This document shows positions 7,413-50,150 of a stretch of 64,000 nucleotides of DNA, in pieces. The notes beneath the pieces were generated by a model. That model made no database searches. It was not told the origin of the DNA and worked only from the letters and a program-made list of their open reading frames with translations. The stretch is from contig CATQJL010000001.1 in NCBI GenBank assembly GCA_958299035.1, positions 80,621,594 through 80,685,593 on the forward strand, in the 5' to 3' direction. Source of the DNA: Cylicocyclus nassatus (taxonomy: Eukaryota; Nematoda; Chromadorea; Rhabditida; Strongylidae). Made by a program: the position numbers and the translations under genes. The stretch's first letter is position 1; each line of letters opens with the position of its first letter.

Positions 7413-8115
7413 GCATAAATTGATGAGAGTGGAGGCATCAACTGAATAAAGCTCCCAGGCTGTAATCGTGGCCCATTTGGCTCACGTACTACGGCTTTGG
7501 ATGATTTTATTGTAGTCGCGCGTTCAAGTTTTCTAGTTGAAAATTCCTACAATTGCCCTCCTACAAGCGCATCGCAGATACAAAAAGCAGATTTGGAGTC
7601 GGCATTCCATGCCCTATGCTCTATAATACAGTGTTCCCTTTATATGAAACCCCACTTGGACAGAGTTAACTTTTGCTGTTAGATTTTTGCATGTTTGAGC
7701 ATTATTTTCCAGGTGAATGAACGCTGGCCACTGTAAGGGAAGACTTCGCAAAATGTCACCAGTGATGCGAGTCCAATGGTGTGTGTGCTACCTCATTCAC
7801 TTCACATTTTTCACGGCAGATTGCTCACAGTTGTTGCTTATGCAATCTCGATATTTCGTCGCAGTGTCATTTCCTGTTGGAAGAAAGGGTTGGGAAGCGA
7901 AAGATGATTAAGCGACAAATCTTGTCGATTTTGAGATACGCATGCAACGATGATCGCATTCGTCATCAGTCCCTAAATGTTTGCATCACTAACCCCCAAG
8001 ATTTCGGTCCGATATTCCAAAGATGCCGATGCGCCGAGAAATGCAGCAGTACTCGTTGTTGGCCTAGAAAAAAATGGTTATCCAAGATGCCACCCTGAGA
8101 AGCTTACTAGGCAGC

Positions 8116-8484
8116 TTACTGATAAAGCACGGGCTTACACTCCGGGCGATGTGTCATAAAACATAGTTTTGCATGTTCTATGATATACCTCAGCCACCAC
8201 TGAAATTATGGAGCTTTTTTGCAGTGATTTAAAAAGAAAGAAGTTTCTCAAAACTAAGTTTGACCAACCAGTGTTGTCGGCTTGTGAGCTTGTTCCAATA
8301 CCATGGTAACAGAAAGCAACACCTCATTCTTGGCTTCCTCAGTTAACTCAAAATTTGGGCCACAAATACGCGATGCTCTCATTCTCCCAGCAAGCAATAT
8401 CTGAAGTTTTACGATTTCTAATGCTAAAAATCTACTAATATCAAAAAAATTGATTACCGCAAGAAGAGCAAAAAGTAGGCTCAT
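8116..8484 (-). CDS. Gene A', small secreted Cys protein, left copy
   Basis: There are three exons: 8484-8458, 8400-8269 and 8199-8116. Intron 1 (8457-8401, 57 bp) runs from GTAATC to CTTCAG and intron 2 (8268-8200, 69 bp) from GTTGGT to TTTCAG. The spliced product is 80 residues: signal peptide MSLLFALLA-ILLAG, then ASRIC, ELTEEA, and a last exon starting WW with AKLCF, EC.P and LY before the stop. Cys are at 22, 66 and 74. Exon lengths (27, 132, 84 nt) match the right copy exactly. Against gene A, intron 1 is identical over 57 of 57 bases, yet about 35 codons differ by replacement and only about 4 silently. A TATATAAA lies 30 bp upstream (8514-8521). It is presumably secreted; family and role are unknown. 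Confidence 0.75.
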
Positions 8485-8513
8485 CTCGAATGATTTAGTG
8501 AACGAGCTTACAC

Positions 8514-8521
8514 TTTATATA
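8514..8521 (-). promoter_or_regulatory. TATA box of gene A'
   Basis: TATATAAA on the minus strand lies 30 bp before the ATG. The block from here to the start codon is conserved almost perfectly with 14151-14190, consistent with a retained core promoter and a very short 5' leader. Confidence 0.55.
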
Positions 8522-9281
8522 CTGGAAGCAGCAATTACAGCGCACAATACATTTTAGCCTCAACAGCACAAAATTTGCTAAAAGATGAATAGGTATTTTT
8601 AACTCTTAACAAATTTGGCGTTCATTGCGCTTTGTAAGTGCAAATCCAAGGTTGAACAAAGCTTTATTATATTTTTGCTGGTACTTGTAAAACGCCGCAC
8701 TTTGCAGCTAAAAACGCTTTAGTTATTGTTCAGTCGCGCTAGAGACAATTCTGCAGTTCTCCGACATACATCTGTCAGAAGCATGAACGATAATAGCTTA
8801 TGAGATCAAAACGAGCTTTGGTTCACGTGCCAAATTATCGCTCCACTCAAATACATGGTCTAGTGTCGGTGGTCTGAGTAGTTCTGAATCAATGCGATTT
8901 GTAGATCCGTAAAAATAGAGTGCAAGAATCTTTTGCAAGCCTTCCATATGACTCGCGTTACTCATCTCTATTTTCTGCACCTCCTCCTTTTAAGGCCCTC
9001 TCTGCTCATGTCGTTTTATCAAGCAACAATCAAAATTAATTACATATATCCTTGCCGTTGCCAGTTGTTTCAAAAACTTTTGATATATGTAGTTGAAACT
9101 TATCATTGTAAGGTCGCTGCGGTAGGCTCAAAATAACGACTAGTTGCGGTTCGGTTAGCTGTCTTGCAGGAGTTACGATTTGTTATTTACCCGAACACGC
9201 TCAAAAATGAACACCTGGCAGCAACTTCAAAAACCACTGCTTTAAGACTGTCGACACGGTTTTTTACTTACTTTTTGCTGC
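8522..9281. other. Upstream flank of gene A', inner end of left arm
   Basis: This stretch mirrors 13510-14150. The short frames seen on both strands (around 8800-9130) do not keep a common reading frame between arms, so no gene is called. The region probably includes the promoter-distal flank of gene A'. Confidence 0.4.
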
Positions 9282-10239
9282 ACGTGCGGAATCAAAATAC
9301 CTACCTATGCGCACAAGACGTACTTTATCCGAAAAGGTGCAGCTGTTTGGTATCAAACAATAAAAGTCATCATTTTCTGTCTTTCATGTGGTTATGGTAA
9401 GTTGTTGCTCGAACAGCGTCACTGACGGATGTGGCATCAGGAGCTTTGGCAAACTCTTAGATTTCAGGAAGATTTGCCATGTGCGAAAATTTCCCCTTGT
9501 AGTCTCTTACTCTTTGGTCAAGTGTTTGAAATCGACTTAGTCTTGAATTTTGAGTTTTTGCCCTTATAATTTCATCTTAGACGCACCACCACCATACTGA
9601 AAATAATAGTTTTGAAAAAAAAACTTTGCTTCATCGCTTGCCTTCAAAGGTGTCACCAGTTATTCCGAACAGTGTCGGAGTGGAACACATGTAGACAGAC
9701 TCTTCAATAGGATCAACTCTTTGGCGAAAGATGGCACTAGATCGTTAATGTTAACTTCGTAAACATAAAGTATATAACGTGATCCAGAATGTTTGTGCCG
9801 TTTTCTGGACTGAATATCAAACCACATAAAATAGTAAAAGGGTAATGATCAGAAAATCATCGACAACAGTGTCTTATCCCTTATGGATGATTTTTAAATT
9901 GTTTTTTCTCGCTCACATGAGTAGAAGTTACAAGTTAATGCTTTTAGTGTCAGATCTTCAATTTGGACATTTAAAAAAATCTGATAACAAGTGGGCAGAG
10001 CAACCTGCAACGCTGATATAGCTCTCCTTCGCTGCTTATTGAAAATTTTTAAAACACCCGCTTAGGGCTTTTTCGAACAAGATGATTCCCAGATGCATCA
10101 CTACATAAGCGTGAGAACTTTAACACCTTCCCAACTCAATTTCCAACCAGCAGTACTAGTGCCATGTGAAAGAACTTAGCCGTAAGCAGTACACCAGCCG
10201 TTTCAAAAAGACTGACCTTTCTTATCCTGGCCCTACTCA
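9282..10239. other. Spacer of the giant palindrome, left part
   Basis: This is unique sequence within the window, with scattered stops in all frames and no convincing gene or repeat. Confidence 0.4.
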
Positions 10240-10684
10240 CACGGGAAGGACACTAATTTAGATACTTTTTTCAAGATGGGACAGCTTGAGACGCTGATTC
10301 CAAATGTGCTGTTCCTATCTGCTTAGCTTTATTCTGAAGCGAGTTATAGTCTCTTCTCCATGCAAAGTTTGCGTGCTTCTCGACTTACTGATGCTACGGT
10401 GTTTGACGTCTAGGTGGTCTTGCAATTGTATTATGCTCCCTTTCAAGATCAAAGAAATTAATCTGATGTTAGTTCAACATCCTAGCACTTTTTTCGAGCA
10501 GATTCTAATTTGCACGCCGTCTTACTACATTCGTTTGTTGATTACCCACAACAGCAAGCCCATAACTCGCTTCCGAATAATGCTAAGCAGTTAGGAACAG
10601 CATATTTGGAATCAGCGTTTGAAGCTGATTCCAAATGTATGTGTCATATCTCAAAGGCTAATCTAAGTTAGTATCCTTCCCTTG
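10240..10684. mobile_element. Harbinger-like foldback MITE, copy 2 (TSD TCA)
   Basis: The termini are CACGGGAAGGACAC and GTATCCTTCCCTTG, with TCA at 10237-10239 and 10685-10687. The inverted arms contain GCTGATTCCAAATGT, a motif shared with the subterminal part of copies 3 and 4. The open frame at 10304-10594 lies inside and is not supported. Confidence 0.65.
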
Positions 10685-10942
10685 TCAGAGTAATTCAAAA
10701 TTCTCAGGCCTTAATTCCGAACGAAAATTCCGTTATAGTAATCTAGAAGCTTTCGCCGTACATAAGAAATCCCATACAAATGACCTGCAAAACCACGTCT
10801 TTCCCTTCCTCCGGCTGCAAGGGTTATGCAGACTTGCATCTATGAGTGATCCACAAGAAACGTGACGCAGAAAGTGCTCATAACTCTGCATAAAAATAAT
10901 TCAAATTGCAAACTTTATCTGATAGCATGAAAACCCTACTTA

Positions 10943-11404
10943 CAAGGGAAGGATACTTGGTGACCGTGGCCTTTCAAAATGAAACGTACCATTAAATGTA
11001 TCTTGAAACGCTAATTCCAAATCTCCCTTTTGGTATCTGCCGTGCGCTCTTTCCAAAGAAGTATGAACATCTTTGACACCAAAATCCGCACTATTTTTGA
11101 TGCAGGATTTACCAATATCGTTAAAATGTTAACTTACGCACTATAAAAGAGCGTCCAAATAAAGTAAAGTTTTACGTTAAGCTTAGAAAAATTTACTCCG
11201 ATATATCGGAGTCTAAAAAGCTTGGATTCTGACGCTTCTGACTGCCTAGATCTCATAAAATTGATATGGAAAAAAGTCCATAATTTCGTTCAGAGAGTAG
11301 CACAGCAGATTATGAACATAGATTTGGAATCAGCGTTTTAAGGCGGTACCTACTGGTATACATCTCATTGCAAAAGGCTACGGTCACCAAATATCCTTCT
11401 CTTG
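10943..11404. mobile_element. Harbinger-like foldback MITE, copy 3 (TSD TTA)
   Basis: The termini are CAAGGGAAGGATAC and the right end ATATCCTTCTCTTG, flanked by TTA at 10940-10942 and 11405-11407. The arms share GGTGACCGT…, GTACCA and GCTAATTCCAAATCT with their complements near 11,310-11,400. Copies 2 and 3 lie 258 bp apart. Confidence 0.7.
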
Positions 11405-12152
11405 TTAGATTTTAACAATCACTTTCGAAAATTTTCGCTGACTACATACAATCATTTGATCAATTTCGTGATTTCTACGATGTGCGGTGTCATTTTCGGT
11501 ATGCCTTTACCGGGTTTGCTTTACCTGGTAAGTTTTGGAAGCACAAATCATAAAAATTCTAACAGCCTTTAACCAAAAGAAATTTACGTTCTTTCTAGAT
11601 AAGATGATAACGAAATACGCTTGAATTTTGCTTTTTTTCCAAGAGCTTTTCCACAAATTTCGTCTTAAAAACTATTAAGAATGGATTTAGTCTTTGAAAA
11701 GCAAATGAGGACATTGAAAATAAAAACGAGTTTTTTGAAAAAATGTCACACTTCATGTAAGCCAACCTGTGATCCTGCAACTTTAACGTTTTCACTCATA
11801 CAGAGTACACGTATGATCGTCTCCACGACTCGTGTAGAGGCGGATTGCGGACTTGCCCTGATTTAAAGGATAAACCTGTTAAACCTCCACGTTAAAGCAT
11901 TGTTTTTCGTACTCTCTCGCTATCAGAAACAGCCACGCATTGAGTTGGCAAAACCCTGCCTTGATGATACTTGCTTTGCTACAAAACGTTTTCAACAGAT
12001 TATATGAGCATAAAACGCGTCAATTGTGATCTGGCTAAAAACGGTTTTGAAAGGAACGACATACTCAAAGCCTTCTTTACAAGCTGCGCTTTCATGCCAA
12101 CACTTGTTCAGGGCCTTCGCTATGCTGAAAAGGGCCTCAAAATCTTAGTAAG
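11405..12152. other. Spacer of the giant palindrome, middle part
   Basis: No convincing gene is seen. Short overlapping frames at 11595-11866 and 11971-12165 have no second copy or splice support. Confidence 0.4.
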
Positions 12153-13497
12153 ACTAGCCTCCTGAGAGTTTTATGATGCAATTTAGCACTAAAAAAGTAT
12201 CAACTCCTATTTTTGTAGTGCAGTGCTTAGAGAGCTGCAAATTTCTCAGATTCCAAAGCTACTCAAAATTTCAATTACAAAGATTGTAAAGACGAATCAG
12301 GTGTTTATATAAATATGAAACTATAAGACATACGCCTAACATGATTCTCCCAAATGTCAGCCAATCTCAAGTCTGGGATAGAGGTACGGTTAAGATTTTT
12401 GTAAAGCACTAATTTTTTCCAATTTTGTGATTAAGGAACTAACGGACTTAGAGATGTTTGTACAATTTCAAACGCGTCCTGAAAAATGAATAAGAGCTAA
12501 TCACTAAAATTCAAATTTTAGCTCGGGAAACTTTGAGTGCGCTTGCAAAAATGACATTTACGATCATATCTGCAAGGTCCACTTGAATCACGAAAAAATC
12601 GTTTGATAATTTTACTACAGTACAATCCACTGTGGGTCGTAGGTGTTCTTTTAATTAGAACGGTGCGACTCATCGGTGGTTGTAAGAATTTTGATGTTTC
12701 AAACTAGCTAGATTACGATGGAATTCCCGCGGGATTTTAATAATGAAAGAACACTCCGCATAATGCCAAAAAATGTGATGAGGTGCTAATTTGATAATCA
12801 GTGCTCGATAGCCGCTCTAGGCATATTCTTGTGGACATGTTTTATTCGGTCGTAAATTGATTTTTTTTCAAATGATTTTCACATCGCGAAACGGAAGTGT
12901 TCCTAATCATTGCCAGAATCCCGCGGAATTACATCGTAAACTAGGTAGTTTAAAACATCAAAATTCTTACAATCACCAATGAGTCGCACCGTTCTAATTA
13001 AAAGAACACCTACGACCCACAGTGGATTGTACTGTAGTAAAATTATCAAACGATTTTTTCGTGATTTAAGTGGGCCTTGCAGATATGATCGTAAAGTCAT
13101 TTTTGCAAGCGCACTCAAAGTTTCCCGAGTCAAAATTTGAATTTTAGTGATTAGCTCTTATTCATTTTTCAGGACGCGTTTGAAATTGTACAAACATCTC
13201 TAAGTCCGTTAGTTCCTTAATCACAAAATTGGAAAAAATTAGTGCTTTACAAAAATCTTAACCGTACCTCTATCCCAGACTTGAGATTGGCTGACATTTG
13301 GGAGAATCATGTTAGGCGTATGTCTTATAGTTTCATATTTATATAAACACCTGATTCGTCTTTAAAATCTTTGTAATTGAAATTTTGAGTAGCTTTGGAA
13401 TCTGAGAAATTTGCAGCTCTCTAAGCACTGCACTACAAAAATAGGAGTTGATACTTTTTAGTGCTAAATTGCATCATAAAAGTCTCAGGAGGCTAGT
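12153..13497. mobile_element. Foldback element, 1.35 kb, arms about 600 bp
   Basis: The left arm from ACTAGCCTCCTGAGAG (12153) to about 12,760 is the reverse complement of about 12,895-13,497, ending GGCTAGT. Only a handful of differences are visible, so identity is above 95% by eye. The short central spacer of about 135 bp has no ORF. It abuts the inner end of the right arm. No clear target duplication is visible, so the superfamily is unknown. The 12903-13133 minus frame lies inside an arm and is not a gene. Confidence 0.7.
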
Positions 13498-14150
13498 CCT
13501 TTTGCTGCTAGTCCTAGCAGCAAAAGTAAGTAAAAAACAGTGTCGACATTCTTAAAGCATCCTTTTGATTTGGAAGTTACTTGAAAAATTTTAGAAACAA
13601 TCAACAACGGCAAGAATATATGTAAGTAATTTTGATTGTTATCTGATAAGACGACATGAGCAGAGAGGGCCTCAGGAGGGGTAGAGGTGCAGTAAATGGA
13701 GATGAGTAAGGCGATTTGCATGGAAGGCTTGCAAAACTTTTTTGCTCTCTATTTCTACGGATCTACAAATCGCATCTCAGAGCTACTTAGAACACCGACT
13801 CTAGACCATTATTTGAGTGGAACGATGCTCTGTCACTTAAGCCAAGGTTCCTCTTTGGTCTCGTGAGCTTTTGTTATATGCTATCGCTAAGTTATTCTTC
13901 ATGCTTCTTTTAGATGTATGTCGGAGATCTGCAGAATTGTCAGCGCGATTGAACAGTAGTTAAAGCGTTTTTAGCTGCAAAGCGCGGCGGTTCTACGAGT
14001 ACCAACAAAATTGGTTCAAACTTGGATTTGCACTTGCGAAGCGCAATGATCACCAAATTTGTTTAGAGTTAACAATACCTATTTGATCTTTTAGCAAATT
14101 TTGTGCTGTTGAGGCTAAAATGTATTGTGCGCTGTAATTGCTGCTTCCAG

Positions 14151-14158
14151 TATATAAA
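14151..14158 (+). promoter_or_regulatory. TATA box of gene A
   Basis: TATATAAA lies 30 bp before the ATG. The interval to the start codon differs from the left copy by one base only. Confidence 0.55.
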
Positions 14159-14187
14159 GTGTAAGCTCGTTCACTAAATCATTCGAA

Positions 14188-14605
14188 ATGAGCCTACTTC
14201 TTGCTCTTCTTGCGGTAATCAATTTTTTTGATATTAGTAGATTTTTAGCATTAGAAATCGTAAAACTTCAGATATTGCTTGCTGGAAGAATGGGAGCATC
14301 GCGTATTTGTCGCCAAGGAAATGAGTTAACTGAAGAAGCCGTAAAAGAGGTGTCACATGCTTTTAGCACGGTACTACAACAGCTTGAAAAGAGTGAAAGA
14401 GTGGTTGGTCATCTGAGAAACTTTTTTTAATTTACATAAAATAGGGCTCGCTGCCCCATGCTTGTAATTGCAGTACTTTTGAAATGGCAAACATCACTGC
14501 AGAAAAGCTTCATAATTTCAGTGGTGGACGATTCATCTCATACAGAAAGCAAAACTATGTTTTGCAGGATGGCACCCGAAGTGTACCCCCCTCCTTTATG
14601 AGTAA
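14188..14605 (+). CDS. Gene A, small secreted Cys protein, right copy
   Basis: There are three exons: 14188-14214, 14272-14403 and 14522-14605. Intron 1 (57 bp) runs from GTAATC to CTTCAG and intron 2 (118 bp) from GTTGGT to TTTCAG. The spliced product is 80 residues: MSLLLALLA joined to ILLAGRMGASRIC gives a clean signal peptide, followed by ELTEEA, a likely amphipathic helix, then WW…AKLCF…KC.P.LY. Cys are at 22, 66 and 74; the odd number suggests a dimer or one free thiol. This start gives the signal peptide and sits after the TATA box. Intron 1 is a multiple of three without a stop, so an unspliced message adds 19 residues in frame. Intron 2 is 49 bp longer than in the left copy. The family is not recognised; gene structure is the strong part, function unknown. 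Confidence 0.78.
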
Positions 14606-15280
14606 GCTGCTTAGTAAGCTGCTCAGGGTGGCATTTTGGATAACCATTTTTTCTAGGGAAACGACTACTGCTGCATTTCTCGGCACATTGGTAGCTGCTA
14701 AATATCGGAACGAAATCGCAGGGGTTAGTGATGCAAACATTTAGAGATTGATGACGAAAGCGATCATCGCATGCGCATCTCAAAGTCGACATTATTTGTC
14801 GCTCAATCATCTTTCGCTTCCCAACCCTTTTTTCCAATAGGAAATGACATTTTGACGAAAATTCGAGATTGCATAAGCAAAACTACGGGTAATCTGCCGT
14901 GTAAAATCGAAGTAAATGAAGTAGCACACATACCATTGAACTCGCACCACTGGTAACATTTTGCGAAGTCTTCTCGTTTCAATGGCAAGCGTGTCATTCA
15001 GCTGAAAAATAGTGCTCAAACATGCAAAAAATCTAACAATGGAAGGTAACCGGTCGAAGTGGCGCTTTCATATAAAGTGAACACAGAGTTATAGAGGTTA
15101 TAATGCTGAAAATCTGCTTTCTGTATTTGCAATGCGCTCCTAGGAGGGAGTTATAGGAATTTTAAACTTAAAGACTTTTACGCGCGGTTACAATAAAATG
15201 TGAAACTGTAGTCTTTGAGCCAAATGGGACATGATTATAGCCTGAGAACTTTATTCAGTTGATGCCCCACTCTTATCAAT
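14606..15280. other. Downstream flank of gene A
   Basis: This mirrors 7,450-8,115. A 61-codon frame at 14771-14956 (MRISKSTLFVAQSS…) is interrupted by TAA in the left copy after 11 codons, so it is not called. It may be 3' flank or a decayed gene. Confidence 0.35.
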
Positions 15281-18294: not shown

Positions 18295-18568
18295 AAAAAC
18301 CTTGCTTACTTTTCGAGCAAAGAGTAAAGTTTTCAGCATGCATCACTGTTCAATCCTTTTCTACATATCAAGACAAAAGCAACCAGATAGTGCCAGTTTA
18401 CATTTCCTTGCTATGAGGGCAAATATAACCGCACACAACTTCAGATGATTTGAGAATAGTTCATACAACTTCTTTAGTGAAGGCAGCTTGCTATTCCTTC
18501 TCGTTGTGAAAGCTGTAAAAGTTAAAGCACCGTCAAGACATTAACATTCAATTATCGCTCGAACTTTA

Positions 18569-20354
18569 CCGCTCACAGAATATGCAAAATTTCCGTGGAT
18601 GTCGCAGAATTCCGGGAATTCCGCGAAGGTTCGCGAAATTCCGGGAATTTCGCGACATTCCCGGAATTCCGCGAAATTCATGTAAATCACGCAAATTACG
18701 CAGGGCTATAACCTCTTTCCAAACGAGTATATTCGAAATTCGAAAACAGCATTGTACTCAGCTCGTCAAGGCGAATCTTTTGATATGCAGGTGTTTCCAA
18801 TATCTTGTTTTTAATAATCTTGAATTTGCATGCGTACGCCTCTTCGCATGGTGGTAACGCAACGAGGATCACACGTAGGAGATTGCCGTGGGTATCGTTC
18901 GATAGTACTCTTTCACTAGATTATCGTGCGCTAAACAGCAGCCGAAGACTCTCTTTTAAAAGAGATAGAAGAGCTGATAAACTCTGGAAAAATCAAGCTG
19001 TTCCAAGTTCTACTAGCCGTAACTTCCTTCAAAATGAACATTCTCGAAGTCCGAAAGCAGCACTGTGTTCACCTCGTCAAGGCAAATCTTACTGTGTACA
19101 GAATGCCCTTAAAATTCTGTTTCCATTTTTTCCAAAATTTCCTGCGCGCGTATATTCACAAGGTCGCAACGGAATGCACATCAAACATAAAAGACCCCAA
19201 TAAGCACTTTGGATTGTGCCACTTCCGCAGATTATCGAGCGCTAAAAAGCATCCCGGGAATGTTTTCGAAAAAAGATAGAAGAGCTGGTAAATTCTGGAA
19301 AAATAGTGTTGTCTCAAATTTTGCCCACCGTGACCCTACAATGGGAAGCTCTACTGCTAAGCAGATGTGATTTTCGTAATCAGCAGGTCAGACAATCTCT
19401 ATGAGCAAGTTTTCAAAGAATCTCGGTTGATCTGATTATTTCCCGTTCTTCGCCCTGAAGCTCGCCGATGGGTTTTGGTCGAAATGTCGATGATCTTGGA
19501 TCGTATGGAAACTCCGCTCAAAGAGGTTTTCGAACACGCTGTTTACGAAAATCACATCTGCTTAGCAGCAGAGCTTCTCATTTTAGGGTCACGGTGGGCA
19601 AAATTTGAGACAACGCGATTTTTCCAGAATTCACCAGCTCTTCTATGTTTTCTAAAAAAGATTCCCCGGTTCTTTTTTAGCGCACGGTAATCTGCGAAAG
19701 CAGCACAATGCAACAGTGCTTATTGGAGTCTTTTATGTTTGATGTGCGCTGCGTTGCGACCTTGCGAATATACACGCGCAGAAAAATTGGAAAAAATTGG
19801 AAACGGAATTTCAAGGGCATGCTGTATATAGGAAGATACGGCTTAACGAGTTGAACACAATGCTGCTTTCGGATTTCGAAAATGTTCATTCTGAAGGAAG
19901 TTACGGCTAGTAGAACTTGGAACAGCTTGATTTTTCCAGAGTTTATCAGCTCTTCTATCTCTTTTAAAAGAGAGTCTTCGGCTGCTGTTTAGCGCACGAT
20001 AATCTAGTGAAATAGTACTATCGAACGATACCCACGGCAATCTCCTACGTGTGATCCTCGTTGCGTTACCACCATGCGAAGAGGCGTCCGCATGCAAATT
20101 CAAGATTATTGAAAACAAGATATTGGAAACACCTGTATATCAAAAGATTCGCCTTGACGAGCTGATTACAATGCTGTTTTCGAATTTCGAATATACTCGT
20201 TTGGAAAGAGGTTATGGGCCTGCGTAATTTGCGTGATTTACATGAATTTCGCGGAATTCCGGGAATGTCGCGAAATTCCCGGAATTTCGCGAACCTTCGC
20301 GGAATTCCCGGAATTCTGCGACATCCACGGAAATTTTGCATATTCTGTGAGCGG
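18569..20354. mobile_element. Near-perfect 1.8 kb palindromic element, TA site
   Basis: Arms 18569-19381 and 19543-20354 (about 813 bp each) are reverse complements with few differences, around a 160-bp spacer. The ends read CCGCTCACAGAATATGC, with TA on each side (18567-18568, 20355-20356). The left arm of the giant duplication shows the site uninterrupted (AGTTCTATACAG). Each arm also holds two diverged direct copies of a ~310-bp unit (around 18,720 and 19,034: GTCAAGGCGAATCTT / GTCAAGGCAAATCTT) and a subterminal run of AATTCCGGGAATT / TTCGCG units. Overlapping frames in the arms repeat because of the symmetry; none looks like a transposase. Confidence 0.75.
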
Positions 20355-20460
20355 TACTGTATTTCAACTTCAACTTGCTTATGAGTAATTCTTGAAAACG
20401 AGCGCGGTAGCTGCAACCCCTGCTTTGGTACGTCTATTCGTTGCTACGTTTACTATAATC

Positions 20461-29166: not shown

Positions 29167-30190
29167 GCTTGCAAAATGTGGTCCCGCGGGTACCTGAATA
29201 CTTTGTAGGTCGGTCACTTTTACTTGTTTTGAGAAATTGAGGCTTGCAAAATGTGGTCCCGCGGGTACTTGAATACTTTGTAGGTCGGTCACTTTTACAC
29301 AAAAGATGTCTTCTGATAATTCTTCAAACAGATCGAAGATGCATTCTTTCTCCTCCAAGCATGAAATCCGAATACATTGGAAAAACTCCACTTCTGCCTC
29401 AAGAACATTGCCGCTTGCAAACGGTGGTCCCGCGGGTACCCGAGTAGTTTGTAGGGTAGGTCACTTTTACAAAAAAGACTTCTCGCAGTAATTTTTCCTA
29501 CAGATCGAAAAAATTTGGCATTATTTCTGCTCCATGCATGAAATTCGAAGACATTGGAAAACTCTACTTCTGCCTCAAGAACATTACCGCTTGCAAACTT
29601 TGGTCCCGCGGGTACCTGAATAGCTTGTAGGTTGGCCACTTTTACACAAAAGACTTCTCGCAGTAATTTTTCCTATAGATCGAAGATATGTGGCATTCTT
29701 TCTGCTCCATGCATGAAATTCGAATACATTGGAAAAAGTCTACTTCTTCCTCAAAAACATTGCCGCTTGCAAACGGTGGTCCCGCGCGTACCCGAGTAGT
29801 TTGTAGGGTCGGCCACTTTTACACAAAAGACTTCTCGCAGTAATTTTTCCTACAGATCGAAGATATTTGGCATTCTTTCTGCTCCATGCTTGAAATTCGA
29901 ATACATTGGAAAAACTCTACTTCTACCTCAAAAACATTGCCGCTTGCAAACGGTGGTCCCGCAGGTACTTGAATTGTTTGTAAGGTAGGTCACTTTTACA
30001 CAAAAGACTTTTCGCAATAAATTTTCCTGCAGATCGGGAGTATTCGACATTCTATTTTTGCTCCGAGCATAAAAATCGAAAACATTTGAAACTCTTACTT
30101 CTGCGCCCGAAAGCTTACCGCTTGCAAACTTTGGTCCCGCGGCTACCCGAGTAGTTTGTAGGGTCGGTCACACTAAAACTTTGAAACTAA
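29167..30190. repeat. Minisatellite, unit about 175 bp
   Basis: Units start with GCTTGCAAA at 29167, 29242, 29413, 29589, 29764, 29942 and 30120, so spacings are 75 (a short unit), 171, 176, 175, 178 and 178 bp. Each has GGTCCCGCGGGTACC, GTTTGTAGGGT.GG and CACTTTTAC. Diverged single units occur at 41,237 and 41,369. Open frames on the minus strand (for example 29032-29391) repeat the same peptide because of the array and are not genes. Confidence 0.85.
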
Positions 30191-35096: not shown

Positions 35097-37917
35097 TTAA
35101 CATACAACGTCCTCCATTCCTAATAGTTGCAGAATATCCACTTTTTTCAAAGCATTCTTCAGTTGAGCACTTGAATTTAAAGATAAGAAAAAAGTTGGTA
35201 GTTTGTTCAAAATAGAGATTGCTCGATAAAAAAAGTTGTTGCGCTGTAGCAAAACATTGTATCATCCAAATCTAGAAATAGTCAAATTAAAAGAGGCTCG
35301 ACGTTCATCGATAGGCCGAAAGACCCAGTATTTGCTGGGTTTCAAACCTACCTCAGCTCGCAATATCTTAAAGGCCATAAATATATCAGCTAAAAATCTT
35401 CTATAGAAAAGAGTTTTGAGACCGAGCTTGCGCAATCTGGTTTTATAGTCAGGTAGGGCAAGAGGGTAGTCAGGGTTTGGAAAAGCGCGATAAAACACAA
35501 TTTTTGTAAAAGCTTTTTGAATTTTCTCAATTTTTTCAATATCTTTTTTCAAAGTTGGGTTCCAGACGTGGCTGCTATATTCTACTACTGGAAGAACAAA
35601 GGTTTTATATATTCTGAGCAGAAAATCAGGATCAGATGACTGAATAGTGCAAAGCAACGTATACATTATTCGAGTGGCACGTGAAGTAATTTTGTCTATA
35701 TGTTTTGAATAATTCAAACCAGATTCGACATAAACGCCCAGATCCTTGACTATAGACTTGCATTCAAGAATATCTTTTATTTCTTTCGGATAAATAGGCC
35801 AATAGGAACAATGCAGCTCTTAGAAAGATTTACTTTGATTTCCCACCTGTCTGCCCAAATAAACATCTGAGAGATAGAATTGCGCAGTGTCATGATGGCG
35901 TTCTCCTTATCATGCTGGTCATAAGCGATATAGATCTTTACATCATCAGCATACGCAGCTACTCCAATGCGAGGGTCTGTAATAAGAGCATTTGGAAGGT
36001 CAAGTGTGTATATATTGAACAGAATTGGGGATAAGATGCTGCCTTGTGGAACTCCAGACCTGCAGGATCTTGCCTTCGAAATCCTATCATGCACTCTGAC
36101 TGAAAATGTTCTATCTTGCAGATAAGATTCGAACCATCGTAACTGCAGACCTCTAATTCCTAAGCTCTCTAGTCTAGATAATAAGAGAGTATGATCTACT
36201 GTATCGAATGCTTTACTTAGATCGAAGTACACGACGCTAACAGACTAATTTCGACTCAACGCTTCTGTCCAGTCAAGTTGGCAATCCAGAAGCTGAGTGA
36301 CAGTAGATCTACCCTGCAAAAATTCATGCTGTTGCTGAGGGAGACATTGTATCTTGTCTAGCCATTTCAATAAGTTTTTCACAACAATTTTTTCAAGTAT
36401 CTTACAAGGTGTCGGAAGGATACTTATTGGTCTAAGTCGGAGAGCTTAGGATTGACAGAGATCTTGGGTAGAGGAATGACGATGGCCGATTTCCACAGAC
36501 GGGGCACTTCTGCATTCATCAAGCTTATATTGAAAATATGGGTTAGTGGGAGTGCCAATTCATTGGCAAACATCTTGTAGAAAATTGCTGGGATGTCATC
36601 AGATGTAATTGATAGTGCGGGACTAACTTTTTTCAAAAGTTGTCTAACAGTATAGGGATCTATCTCTGGTGAAGAAAATTCCTCAGAGGATTTGCTCGCC
36701 ATTATAGGACTTGAGGGGGTAGGTCGTTGAATACATTCAAAAAGTAATCTGCAAGCCCTTCAGCTTTAGAAATGGAAGTGTAGAAAACATTGCCATTAGA
36801 GTCTTACAATGGACCAAAAAACTTGGTTTCCTTTGTATGTTTCTTCAGGTATGCTCAGAGATGGCGTGCGGTAATTTTACCAGCCATTTTTTTTCTTTTT
36901 GCTTTAGGTAACGTTTTAAATGGAAAGATAACTTTTTAGAGACGGACTTATACTGTGCATTATTCAAGGGATTATGGCGTTTGAAAATAGTCTTATTCTG
37001 TGGGCATAGAGGTTTCTTATGTGTTTCGGATATCGCGAGAAAGGGGGAATTCTTTGTTTGAAAGGTACATATAGAAAGATCAGATTGCGGACTATCTTGC
37101 AGAATCGATCGTAAAAATCATCAGTAGAGGAGTACCCGTCAAACACATTTAGCCAATTAGTATTGGATAAGATTGCCTTTATAGAAATGGTATCAGCTTT
37201 GGAGTAATCACGTTTAGACGAATGTTCATTGATATCAACTAGACCAGCAGACAAGGCGATATCGAAAGCTACGGTGTTATGATCTGCATTACCTAAGGGG
37301 AGATAGTTTCGCACGTTGTAAACGGTATCTCTTTTTGCAAATATCAAATCTAAGATTGAAGCATCTTTGGTAGGATTTGTAACAAGTTGTGAGAGCCCCA
37401 AACACTCAAAAAAGGAAGCAAAGCGGGAAGGAGAAACAGTGAAAGTTTTCATTTCAGATCAATCCACACCAGCAAGATTGAAATCACCGAGAAAAATGAG
37501 GCTATTATTATTTGTGGAAGTTGCCAGGTTTTCTAGAAAATGGATTAATTCTTCATCATGTGTGGATGTCTGATTGGGTGGTCGATAAATTTGCACAAAT
37601 CTGATGTCATGAGAGCCATTAACGATCAGATCAAAAGTGAGTAGATCGGTAGATAGATAATGTCTTACATCAATATTTTGAAACAAAAGATCGAATCGGA
37701 TTAATATGCAGACGCCCCCTCCCCTTTTACTTTTCCGATCACTACGTAAAATGTTGTACGGTAGGTTGCCCAGTATTTCTGCGTCAGTGATATTGCTATT
37801 AAGCCAAGACTCGGTGATAAAAACAAGTGCTGGCTTGTAAGAATGAACGAAATGGTGGAATTCTACAAATTTGTTCACTAAACTTCTTGCATTAAGGAGG
37901 ATTATCCAGGCCAGAAA
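35097..37917 (-). mobile_element. CR1/Jockey-type LINE, decayed ORF2
   Basis: Reading from 37,917 downward, an endonuclease domain begins LLNARSLVNKFVEF and has ITESWLN, GGGVCI, YRPPNQ and FLGDFN. An RT domain follows with FDLSKAFDTVDH, GVPQGSILSPILFNIY and AYADDVKIY (the YxDD-type catalytic motif, here YADD). The C-terminal part has VVEYSSHVWNP and ends RNNFFYRAISILNKLP…MEDVVC, stop at 35097-35099. It encodes retrotransposition functions (target nicking and reverse transcription). It is broken: nonsense codons at 37459-37461 (GVD*SEM) and 35262-35264 (RFG*YN) both look like Trp TGG to TGA, and frames shift near 36,970, 36,420 and 35,775. No ORF1 is recognised upstream. It shows no long poly(A) or direct repeat at its ends. 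Confidence 0.9.
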
Positions 37918-47640: not shown

Positions 47641-50150
47641 TCAGCATCATCAACTGCTACTCTCCTACATCAGCAGCTGACGACTCAGAACTAGATGCTT
47701 TCCAGGAAGACGTAAAGCAGGTCGTCCGCAACGAGAAATCCGTTTACAAGTTCGTTGTGAGCGACTTCAACGCGAATCGGGATGCCACTAGAAGAGGAAT
47801 ACAGAATCGGGAAGTTTGAATATGGGCTCTGGAACGAAAACGGCAACCGTCTCGTTGAGCTTCTCTCCGCCGCACGACTTTACCATGGAAATTCCATCTT
47901 CATGAAGAAACATCGCCGGTAGACATGGGAATCGCCCAATGGAACGACATACGCGAAGATCGACCACATTCTTACCAACCGAAGGTGGAGCTTGCTCGAT
48001 GTATCGATAGTTCCATCCTTCTGCAGAGGCTTCGATCACCGCCTCTTTCGAGCAAAGATATGATAGTGGAAAGCTGGAAAAGAAAGTCTGTTACAGAAGG
48101 AGAAGGAAGAAAGTTGTTTATGACGGTAACAGGTTAGAAGAGCTCATAGCAAGTTGTGACTGGCCCACCGAGAAGGACCAAACGTACGACTACAACCGGC
48201 TTCTGAAAGGATTGCGAGCCTGCGGAGAGTGCCCCTCAGTGACTTCTCAGAAGAACTTGTAATGTTTTTTGAAGACCACCAAGGAATTGCTCGAAAAAAG
48301 AAGATTCCCAAGGCAGGATCCGAATGCAACCCATCTCGAACGACTGAAGCCAACGCCAGTTGCAGAACAGCTTTGCAGGAGGATCCCAGGAAGTACAGGC
48401 AAGCCAAGATACTGGAAGCAGCCGAAAGAAGACGAAGTCTTGAGAAATGCCGAAGGGACCTCTGCGAATATCATGTGCCGCTGGCTGCACTACTCAATGA
48501 AGACGGTCTCCGACTTTTTTCCGATACAAGAGGAATCTATCGCAAAGTATTTCTACACCAACCTCTCTTGCTCATCAACACCTTTGCCAATGCCCGTTGT
48601 TCCCACTGGAGAATTACCACCAAGGATTCTACCTGCTGAAGTGCGCACGGCGATTCAGACCATGAAGACATCTACGGCTCCAGGACCAGACCATCTTTCC
48701 GTCGAATTTCTGCGAGCCGGAGGACAACGTCTACACGAGATTCTCGCGTCGCACCTGACATCTTACCTTCAGAAGGAGAGGATTCCCGACCAGTGGATAA
48801 CGTCAAGAACCGTTCTCTCTTCAAAAAGGGCGAATGGGAGGATGTTCAAAACTATCGTCCAATATGCCTGCTGAGTGTGCACTACAAACTTTTCACGAAG
48901 ATTATCCTCGCTCGCATATCTAGAACACTGGAGTAGCTCAACCCCAGGAACAAGCTAGATCCCGCAAGAGATTTAGTTGCATGGCCACATCCAGACGGTT
49001 TCGAAGGTTATAGAAGTCTGCCGGGAATACCGACTGCCTCTCGTCCTAATCTTCGTCGACTACGAGAAAGCCTTCGACAGCGTTGAAACCAACGCCATCC
49101 TGTCTGCGCTAGTCGATCAAGGAGTGGACCCAGCTTACGTGAGGACGTTAGCCGACTGCTACAAGGACTGTACAACGACGATGCAGCTATTCCATCGCCC
49201 CCTGACCATACCAATCGGGAAGGAGATCCGACAAGGCGACACAATCTCGCCAAAGCTGTTCACCGCGGCCTTGCAGTGGGTGATGAAGTTACTGGACTGG
49301 GACGAGAGAGGCATACGAGTTGATGGGAGATTCCTGTCCAACCTTCGTTTTGCGGACGACATCGTTCTCTTTTCGAGCACTATCACTGAAGTAGAGACGA
49401 TGCTGAGGAACTAAACGAAGTGGGAATAAGATCAGACTGCGAATAAATCGGAAAAAGACTTAGTTTATGAGGAACGCCCTTTGCGAAGATGTAGAAATGG
49501 AATTGGAAGGCATCCGATTATGGAGACGTCTTCTTACGCGTATCTCGGACGTTTGATGAACATGGAGAACAACTGAGGGAAAAACTTAGCGGGAAAAGAA
49601 AAGCAGCCTGAGCCGTATTCGGGACTTTGAAGGAATCTACCGACCAGCTGACGGACCAGGAGCTTCGTGCCCAACTGTTCGACTCAACCGTTCTTCCGGT
49701 GCTTTGTTACGCAATTGAGACTTGGGTCGACACTGTAGCCATGTCGAAAGCTTTACGTGCCACCCACAGAGCGCTCGAGCGCAGTCTCCTGAACATAACC
49801 CAACGCAAGCAACATATAGTCGGACTTTGCAGTACGGATATGGGAAGAATGTCCCGTCTTCGTGACCCAGAGGAATACGTTGCGAAAGCGAAATGGGTCA
49901 CATCATGAGAAGAACAGACGACAGATGGACATCGAAAACCTCTGAGTAGATTCCTCGCGAAGCCAAACGTCCCCGACAAAGACCACCAACGAGGGCAGAC
50001 GTGTTCGTGAAACGGATGGACCAGCTGAGAAACTAGCTGGATACGATTTTTGCATTTTGAACTAATGCAGCCAGCGACGTCAATGAAGAAGATCATGGAT
50101 GTCTGAAGCGAGTGTGAACACGGCCCATCTAAGTATCTAAGTAAGTGTTA
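47640..50150 (+). mobile_element. RTE-clade LINE, decayed
   Basis: Endonuclease fragments appear in alternating frames from 47,690 ([18 protein letters not shown]; then IAQWNDIREDR). The linker reads KCRRDLCEYHVPLAALL, followed by RT motifs STAPGPDHLSVEFLRAGG (frame 48269-48874), then FVDYEKAFDSVETNAIL, PIGKEIRQGDTISPKLF and LRFADDIVLFSS (48977-49414; FADD is the catalytic box). The C-terminal part is LTDQELRAQLFDSTVLPVLC (49627-49908). At least five frameshifts or stops inactivate it. The 3' end has GGCCCATCTAAGTATCTAAG, a short-repeat tail in RTE fashion. This lineage is very common in strongylid nematodes. Confidence 0.9.

Follow-up and report, generated by a model that had tools for sequence, protein, structure and literature searches.

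Two short genes in the genome of Cylicocyclus nassatus, a strongylid nematode that parasitizes horses, are more alike in their introns than in the exons encoding their mature peptides. What kind of family do they represent, and what has kept some parts of the genes alike while others diverged?

Structure of the gene pair

The genes lie in a 64,000-nucleotide stretch of DNA (hereafter, the window). As a first-pass annotation had placed them, gene A starts at 14188 on the forward strand and gene B (there called A') at 8484 on the reverse strand. They are arranged head-to-head in an imperfect palindrome of ~21 kb, P1 (1152..22759, no strand), with B in the left arm, A in the right arm and transcription running outward from the centre; arm pieces are 76–86% alike. 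In gene A (+), exon 1 (14188..14214) encodes the start of the signal peptide and exon 2 (14272..14403) its end and the first mature part, followed by an 80-nt exon 3 (14522..14601) and by exon 4 (14657..14744), which had been overlooked. The predicted introns are 57 nt (14215..14271, GT..AG, the same as that of B), 118 nt (14404..14521) and 55 nt (14602..14656, GTAAGC..CTAG). Gene B (-) has exons at 8458..8484, 8269..8400, 8120..8199 (80 nt) and 7973..8063, and introns of 57 nt (8401..8457), 69 nt (8200..8268) and 56 nt (8064..8119). Exon 4 ends in ..VSDANI-stop in both genes. A TATA box is found at 14151..14159 (+; TATATAAAG) for gene A and at 8513..8521 (-) for gene B, and the same site is TATA-like across aligned members, with D42 having lost it. 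The N terminus, as read from the sequence, is hydrophobic (MSLLxALLAILLAG..) ahead of a polar mature part, and the peptides are probably secreted. A noncoding RNA gene was discarded as an interpretation, the window having no Rfam or tRNA match.

We count at least 24 loci in the family, spread over two large contigs. Six palindromes (P2–P7) were found besides P1, each with one A-type and one B-type gene, so that head-to-head paralogous pairs occur in all seven. The structure of the first three exons is intact in 12 of the 14 palindrome genes, with varying intron lengths and a conserved exon frame; both P4 genes are broken. Among eight distant loci on the same contig, gene structure is kept in D36, D37, D39, D40 and D41, and in D43 over the portion compared; it is also kept at two loci on the second contig. 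The three cysteines previously described as conserved (C22, C66 and C74) do not vary across the nine rows of alignment A2 and may form disulphides. The tryptophan pair W54–W55 fared less well: W55 is present in 12 of 12 intact palindrome genes, but position 54 is Leu in P5A and P6A, Phe in P7A and Ile in P7B, and W55 is absent from part of the wider family (e.g. D36).

Some of these copies could be uncollapsed haplotypes rather than true duplicates, given that P5A equals P6A through exon 3 and that a single base in 418 separates P1A from P2A. We consider this quite unlikely as an account of the multiplicity. The spacer of P1 is structured unlike that of P2, P1B and P2B are ~2% apart, and the window's genes are ~2–23% diverged from those in the other palindromes. 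Furthermore, P1/P2 and P5/P6 are mirror images in orientation, which plain haplotig duplication would not give.

A fourth exon

Exons of 27, 132 and 84 nt had been proposed for both genes. These lengths can be read in A and B, but the last exon is more likely 80 nt and followed by another: the claimed stop of gene A (14603–14605) overlaps a GTAAG donor starting at 14602. We conclude that a splice donor very likely underlies the "stop" closing exon 3, that a fourth exon follows, and that the 80-residue products described earlier are very likely incomplete, with ~108 residues once exon 4 is included. Exon 4 reads open in the expected frame at all 22 loci (for D43 this covers just 23 nt); of the other two frames, one contains stops at 22 of these loci and the other at 13. 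Exon 4 also has a replacement excess of its own. Of the three bases before the T[A/G]A, the third is G in 21 of 22 loci (D37 has no donor G) and the first two vary; a G follows in all 22. All 12 intact palindrome genes continue through exon 4, exon 4 is present with its own stop in each of E59 and E60, NCBI model P0002 of an annotated relative includes it, and the NCBI model of D40 reads through the exon 3 "stop". A genuine stop after exon 3 would account for the in-frame TAA or TGA at that point in 22 of 22 compared loci, for the change in D37 that destroys the donor and retains the stop and the residue, and for NCBI model P0001 (D39), in which the exon 3 donor is unused; set against the evidence above, however, this three-exon model seems improbable. 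It is far less credible that intron 1 is retained and translated within a longer leader, although in A and B the 57 nt are stop-free and divisible by three. Intron 1 lengths in other palindrome genes include 58, 59, 60 and 62, read-through would run into a stop or out of frame in P3B, P4A, P5A, P6A, P7A and P7B, and GT..AG is kept in palindrome genes despite the length changes.

Divergence of exons and introns

The contrast noted between A and B was confirmed. Intron 1 shows 0 differences in 57 positions, and exon 1 differs by one base, changing one codon (Leu/Phe). Across mature codons 20–80 we counted 33 replacement and 3 silent differences, close to the ~34 and ~4 given before, and the last exon as first delimited has 14 replacement codons and no silent one, exactly as counted then. 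Mature sites (the mature part of exon 2 plus exon 3) differ at 59 of 182 positions and noncoding sites (introns 2–3 plus 300 bases of 3' flank) at 46 of 405 (Fisher P=2.9e-9), a contrast above chance. A first neutral reference had been dropped because its 3' flank contained exon 4. A reference including 300–800 bases downstream gave 5.5e-8 for P1, 1.1e-8 for P5, 1.2e-6 for P7 and P=0.33 for P3, but was dropped: in P2, P3 and P6 the segment is misaligned, with roughly half of its sites differing, and in P4 it is short.

A contrast of the same kind is found in a separate pair, D39/D41, where the mature part of exon 2 differs at 24 of 105 sites and the noncoding sequence at 14 of 297 (P=4e-7), with 17 replacement and no silent codons in exon 2; exons 3 (2/80) and 4 (omega 0.67) of this pair lack the replacement excess.

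Contrary to what had been suggested, intron 1 is not "frozen". Partners differ at 0–2 of 57 sites in P1–P3 but at 9–11 of 55–59 sites (16–20%) in P4–P7, a divergence below that of exons 2–3 (26–36%), and the identity in P1 belongs to a gene-conversion tract. Because near-identity is local to P1–P3, a constrained regulatory element in intron 1 was rejected.

Gene conversion between palindrome arms

Trees of exons 2–3 separate an A clade from a B clade, whereas in trees of flanking segments P7A joins P7B and the A genes of P1–P3 fall with B. This conflict indicates gene conversion that spares exons 2–3 of intact genes. The 5' tract differs at 5 of 219 sites in P1 versus 29 of 217 in P5 (P=1e-5), and, judged from such comparisons, the P1 conversion tract spans the promoter, the signal exon and intron 1. 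In the broken gene P4A, exon 2 contains a B-like patch, so conversion can reach this exon too. Synonymous divergence within exons (dS 0.23–0.36) exceeds noncoding divergence (0.12–0.16), and the A/B split is therefore older in the exons; since conversion lowers noncoding divergence, exon/intron ratios overstate selection. The palindromes offer a natural case of selection versus gene conversion, with 5' parts homogenized and exons 2–3 of intact pairs not.

Tests for positive selection

In site models, positive selection on mature codons is the favoured account. Under models that assume recombination to be absent, the likelihood ratio for M1a/M2a was 11.4 on 61 codons and 23.3 on 88 codons (an alignment from which one extra exon 4 codon of P1B, P2B and P5B was removed), and that for M7/M8 was 24.2. 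Exon 4 alone gave ratios of 20.6–24.4 and an M0 omega of 2.5–2.8. Overall, ratios ranged from 11 to 38, versus 0–2.9 in three noncoding pseudo-codon controls. With neither of its genes intact, P4 was kept out of the dN/dS and site-model tests; the P7 rows were left out of pairwise exon 4 comparisons. Pairwise dN/dS, which had been proposed as a check, gave a mixed outcome: values for A–B pairs are above 1 (1.27–1.83) but not significantly so, either by Nei–Gojobori (NG) codon bootstrap (P 0.06–0.26) or by maximum likelihood (ML) against 1 (2dlnL 1.0–3.3). For exon 3 alone, the NG bootstrap gave P 0.005 in P3, 0.043 in P6 and 0.075–0.37 in the other four A–B pairs. Same-type copies compared across palindromes have dN/dS of ~1 or lower (NG 0.14–1.14, ML 0.71 and 1.17), and M0 omega was 1.27 and 1.46 (ratios 1.0 and 3.7), overlapping the noncoding controls (0.87–1.40).

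Conversion by itself could conceivably generate the exon–intron contrast, the exons then retaining an older, neutral divergence. The excess of in-exon dS over noncoding divergence, the conversion signal in the flanks, the pairwise ratios and the control omegas as high as 1.40 are all compatible with such a scenario. We nevertheless regard it as unlikely. Both M1a/M2a and M7/M8 reject it and the three noncoding controls do not; the high omega of exon 4 alone and the purely replacement differences in exon 2 of D39/D41 also speak against it, and the sparing of exons 2–3 from conversion in six intact palindromes would require selection anyway.

Searches for relatives

We found no description of such a family: small, diversifying proteins with a signal-peptide-like N terminus in a strongylid nematode, as the first-pass annotation had surmised. 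A profile search of 5.8 billion proteins, its sensitivity limited by word and length filters, gave no hits at E<=10 other than two C. nassatus proteins, and no search yielded a convincing relative outside the C. nassatus genome. A single-sequence protein search gave three candidates and no match, and a PDB sequence search gave nothing better than E 0.65. The scanned members matched no Pfam or NCBIfam family at its curated cut-off. The best sub-threshold match was NF038378 (E 0.0026, 18 bits versus a cut-off of 40), and the Pfam-A matches at E<=1 for the sequences in A1 and A2 include no uteroglobin-type domain. Cyathostomin transcriptome papers found in a literature search did not treat the family in their titles or the openings of their abstracts. 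The genes appear to constitute an undescribed secreted-type peptide family of a horse strongyle, with site-model evidence of positive selection.

Possible roles

We propose, with a probability of about 0.6, that A and B belong to a new secreted multigene family that is converted between palindrome arms, diversified in its mature exons and probably host-facing. Each gene has a TATA-like promoter and four predicted exons, and encodes a signal-like leader and a mature peptide of ~90 residues in which three cysteines form the framework. A palindrome ancestral to P1–P7, with one A and one B gene, was copied at least six times along one chromosome. Arm-to-arm conversion keeps homogenizing intron 1, the signal exon and the promoter, and in P7 the 3' part including exon 4 as well. 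Diversifying selection would drive replacements in the exons of the mature peptide, and the A/B difference of exons 2–3 is maintained in all intact pairs. Gene structure, the copies, their conversion and the codons rich in replacements are seen in the sequence itself; splicing, secretion and disulphide bonds are predicted from it. By analogy, and at about even odds, the products may be excretory-secretory peptides at the worm–horse interface, varied to track host targets or to evade antibody.

The same genes under the same selection could instead serve reproduction, in seminal fluid, sperm competition or as pheromones. Palindromic, converting and rapidly evolving gene copies are typical of reproduction too, and the copies here are palindromic with conversion between arms; we consider this role possible but clearly less probable than a host-facing one. 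The mouse Abpa/Abpbg secretoglobin genes likewise encode small, secreted, fast-evolving proteins in much-duplicated head-to-head paralogue pairs (PMC2291036), and their products (ABPs) have been called pheromones (PMC3477143). A/B resemble them in head-to-head paralogous pairs and many copies. Cysteine spacing differs between Abp and A/B. Gene conversion, indicated in A/B, is discounted by the authors of the Abp report (PMC2291036), and the heterodimer is an Abp trait, conjectural for A/B.

It is also conceivable, though unlikely, that A and B are two subunits of one disulphide-linked heterodimer, an invertebrate counterpart of Abp. Conversion would then hold promoters and signal peptides in step, and selection would bar conversion of exons 2–3 so that the subunits stay complementary. 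The odd number of framework cysteines allows this, and the presence of one A and one B in seven of seven palindromes fits it, as does P4, with its two broken genes and the B-like patch in A. Since the palindrome is copied as a unit, however, neither the pairing nor P4 nor the odd cysteines prove a heterodimer.

Comparison with known systems

Returning to the proposed secreted, diversifying family, the kind of pattern is one already known from the small secreted salivary gland protein (SSSGP) genes of the Hessian fly. Those genes occur in clustered copies including one inverted repeat; their promoter, signal-peptide region and intron are conserved while the mature region is super-diversified under positive selection, and concerted homogenization has been proposed for the conserved parts (PMC2955719). 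A/B are similar in kind, not by homology: promoter, signal region and intron are more alike than the mature coding sequence, positive selection acts on the mature region (according to site models, pairwise dN/dS being non-significant), and the conserved parts appear homogenized between copies (tree conflict and tract test). They differ in phylum and in having palindrome arms, four exons and three framework cysteines; conversion in A/B is read from tree conflict, and salivary expression is a feature known for SSSGP and not for A/B. Homology to SSSGP was assessed through the profile search, which returned no SSSGP protein.

A conserved leader and introns also go with a hypervariable mature peptide in the venom genes for conotoxins and snake phospholipase A2. 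A/B differ from them in having only three framework cysteines and no homology or venom-apparatus evidence, a literature search on venom-type intron conservation gave no match, and the earlier comparison with venom found no specific support. Strongylid host-interaction families such as ASP, Kunitz and TIMP are secreted and diverse in a parasite of the mammalian gut (PMC10682056), but A/B are unlike them in that the scanned members have no Pfam match at the curated cut-off. Only two of the at least 24 A/B loci were matched as annotated proteins in our searches, which suggests that such families may go unnoticed in other strongylid genomes.

Organization and copy number of the A/B genes

Both genes predicted by the first-pass annotation are present, A on the plus strand (ATG at window position 14188) and B, which it called A', on the minus strand (ATG at 8484), and its exon sizes of 27, 132 and 84 nt were reproduced for each. 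Its codon counts between the two genes were likewise recovered, with 33 replacement and 3 silent differences across codons 20–80 and, in the 84-nt exon, 14 and 0. A and B lie in opposite arms of an imperfect palindrome (~1.15–22.8 kb of the window; arm pieces 76–86% alike), and transcription of both is directed outward from its centre. The spacer between them holds a separate short palindrome (window 12152–13498; arms ~606 nt, 96% alike) that looks like a fold-back element. At window 18567–20356 lies an inverted repeat whose 642-nt arms are 95% alike and separated by 506 nt.

The window occupies 80,621,594–80,685,593 of contig C1 (107.7 Mb; assembly total 514.7 Mb) of Cylicocyclus nassatus, a cyathostomin of horses. 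DNA searches identified 14 close copies forming seven palindromes (P1–P7, with P1 in the window), each carrying a single A-type gene head-to-head with a single B-type gene. Eight more distant loci (D36–D43) are on C1 at 77.8–81.2 Mb and two (E59 and E60) on contig C112 (89.1 Mb), giving a family of at least 24 loci. The exact TATA-to-ATG pattern matched the genome ten times, always on C1, and its reversed control had 0 matches. Twelve of the 14 palindrome genes are intact, both P4 genes being broken; five of the eight distant C1 loci (D36, D37, D39, D40 and D41) are intact through exon 3, D43 is open as far as the sequence covered reaches, D42 is broken, and D38 requires a shifted acceptor. 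E59 and E60 are both intact. P2 and P1 are mirror images (G000:C1:80603000–80644000, in C1 coordinates of the source assembly; A- B+ | B- A+), as are P6 and P5 (G000:C1:80406000–80462000; B- A+ | A- B+), so these pairs form palindromes of palindromes. At the level of genomic sequence, the predicted gene structure and its multiple copies are well established.

A probable fourth exon

The first-pass annotation ended both genes at a stop in exon 3, a reading that very probably does not hold: the putative stop sits inside GTAAGC and behaves as a splice donor. Across 22 loci (broken ones included, E59 and E60 left out), the base preceding T[A/G]A at the exon 3 end is G in 21, with variation at both positions ahead of that G, and the base directly after is G in all 22. 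A G kept on both sides in this way is expected of a donor, and a stop need not behave so. The sole counter-example is D37, where the preceding G is A, a change that is silent if TAA is the stop. An intron 3 of 50–57 nt is followed by exon 4. The expected reading frame of this exon is uninterrupted at all 22 loci (in D43 over 23 nt only), while stops interrupt one of the other frames in all 22 and the other in 13. Indels in exon 4 keep the frame as far as the VSxA motif in a 20-locus alignment, and the exon has its own replacement excess (M0 omega 2.5–2.8; M1a/M2a likelihood ratio (LR) 20.6–24.4). E59 and E60 also carry exon 4, with their own stops. The exon 3 "stop" is therefore very probably a donor leading to a fourth exon, whose addition gives predicted products of 108 (A) and 109 (B) residues. 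Public annotation is inconsistent here: the NCBI model P0002 (D40) includes exon 4, whereas P0001 (D39) uses another exon 3 donor and reads exon 4 in a frame differing from that of the family. P5B (G000:C1:80456722, +) has lost its terminal stop, the codon following VSDANI, and stays open beyond it.

Gene conversion around exons 2–3

The identity of intron 1 between A and B, taken in the first-pass annotation as a frozen intron, was reproduced (0/57 differences in P1; 2/57 in each of P2 and P3). It is explained by conversion between partners, since the intron differs at 9/56, 9/55, 11/55 and 10/59 sites in P4, P5, P6 and P7, respectively. The tract from promoter to signal differs between partners at 5/219 sites in P1 versus 29/217 in P5 (P=1.0e-5), and far upstream (-350 to -106) the differences number 4–9/245 in P4–P6 versus 34–37 of 221–222 in P1–P3. 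In FastTree phylogenies of all 14 palindrome genes, the mature part of exons 2–3 (182 sites) separates an A clade (support 0.97) from a B clade (support 0.96), P7 and P4 included. In the 5' tract tree, P7A and P7B group together (0.95), and the A genes of P1–P3 with P4A share a clade (0.95) with the P1–P6 B genes, P5A and P6A falling outside. This conflict, with the uneven divergence of partners, shows that conversion has occurred upstream of the mature exons in at least two lineages; the grouping of P7A with P7B (0.97) in the tree of intron 3, exon 4 and flank shows that in P7 it also reached the 3' region and with it exon 4. Taken together, the sequences firmly indicate gene conversion between A and B copies.

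The A/B difference in exons 2–3 is kept in all seven palindromes. The sole sign of conversion within these exons is a B-like patch in exon 2 of the broken P4A (G000:C1:80827160, -), where partners differ at 26/101 exon 2 sites versus 32–36 of 99–102 in the other palindromes. Exons 2–3 are thus spared in intact genes rather than immune to conversion.

Replacement excess in the mature exons

Mature sites (the mature part of exon 2 plus exon 3) differ between partners at 31–34% in six palindromes (P4 left out), compared with 11–15% in introns 2–3 plus 300 bases of 3' flank (P 1.5e-7 to 2.9e-9, tests not independent), a contrast that overstates selection because the flanks are homogenised. In-exon dS is 0.23–0.36 in four A–B pairs. 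The expected dN/dS above 1 was obtained for A–B pairs (1.27–1.83), but the excess is not significant pair by pair (bootstrap P 0.06–0.26, six pairs). Same-type copies from different palindromes gave 0.14–1.14 (NG estimates, six pairs) and 0.71 and 1.17 (ML, two pairs).

Codon site tests used our own implementation of M0, M1a/M2a and M7/M8. Over 61 codons, M0 gives an omega of 1.27 (LR 1.0 against 1) and the M1a/M2a LR is 11.4; over 88 codons including exon 4, M0 omega is 1.46 (LR 3.7), the M1a/M2a and M7/M8 LRs are 23.3 and 24.2, and ~46% of codons are placed at omega ~3.4. An alternative tree gave an LR of 38.1 (18.8 without exon 4), compared with 2.9, 1.5 and 0.0 for noncoding pseudo-codon controls in three frames. 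Control M0 omega (0.87–1.40) overlaps that of the exons, so the evidence for selection lies in the fast-codon class and not in mean omega; these models firmly support a subset of codons enriched in replacements. Outside P1–P7, D39 and D41 differ at 24/105 exon 2 sites versus 14/297 noncoding sites (P=4e-7), and all 17 of the exon 2 codons that differ are replacements, none silent (2dlnL 3.85); neither exon 3 (2/80 sites) nor exon 4 (8/64 sites, omega 0.67) of this pair shows the pattern.

Predicted peptides and possible roles

Conserved positions include C22, LC at 65–66, C74, Y79 and VS at 103–104. Splicing and signal cleavage are predicted, as are disulphides from the three framework cysteines, one of which may pair between molecules; a heterodimer of A and B seems improbable. 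An Arg-Ala at codons 17–18, just N-terminal of the first mature cysteine, recurs in many members (MRAS, GVRAS, GARAE, RRRRAV) but not in P1A, and may be a pro-peptide cleavage site.

No Pfam or NCBIfam family reached its cut-off for the members scanned, and PDB matches were at chance level. With cut-offs of E<=1 and of E<=10 alike, profile searches of 5.77 billion proteins returned solely two C. nassatus proteins, although their word filter and length limits may miss distant or unannotated relatives. These two proteins are recorded as "unnamed protein product [Cylicocyclus nassatus]". Among the papers listed in literature searches, none mentions the family in its title or abstract opening.

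Hessian-fly SSSGP genes are described with the same design, a conserved promoter, signal region and intron with a diversified mature part (PMC2955719). Fast-evolving head-to-head pairs like those of A and B are described for mouse Abp genes (PMC2291036). By analogy, we give about even odds that the peptides act at the worm–host interface; the main rival is that they act in reproduction instead.

Other features of the window

A reverse transcriptase fragment lies on the plus strand at window 48977–49414 (Pfam RVT_1, E 5.5e-12). Several open frames at 35262–37917 on the minus strand resemble a non-LTR retrotransposon by eye and include a YADD motif; one ORF from this region had no match in a Pfam scan. 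A tandem array of ~5 copies of a 177-bp unit lies at window 29242–30171.
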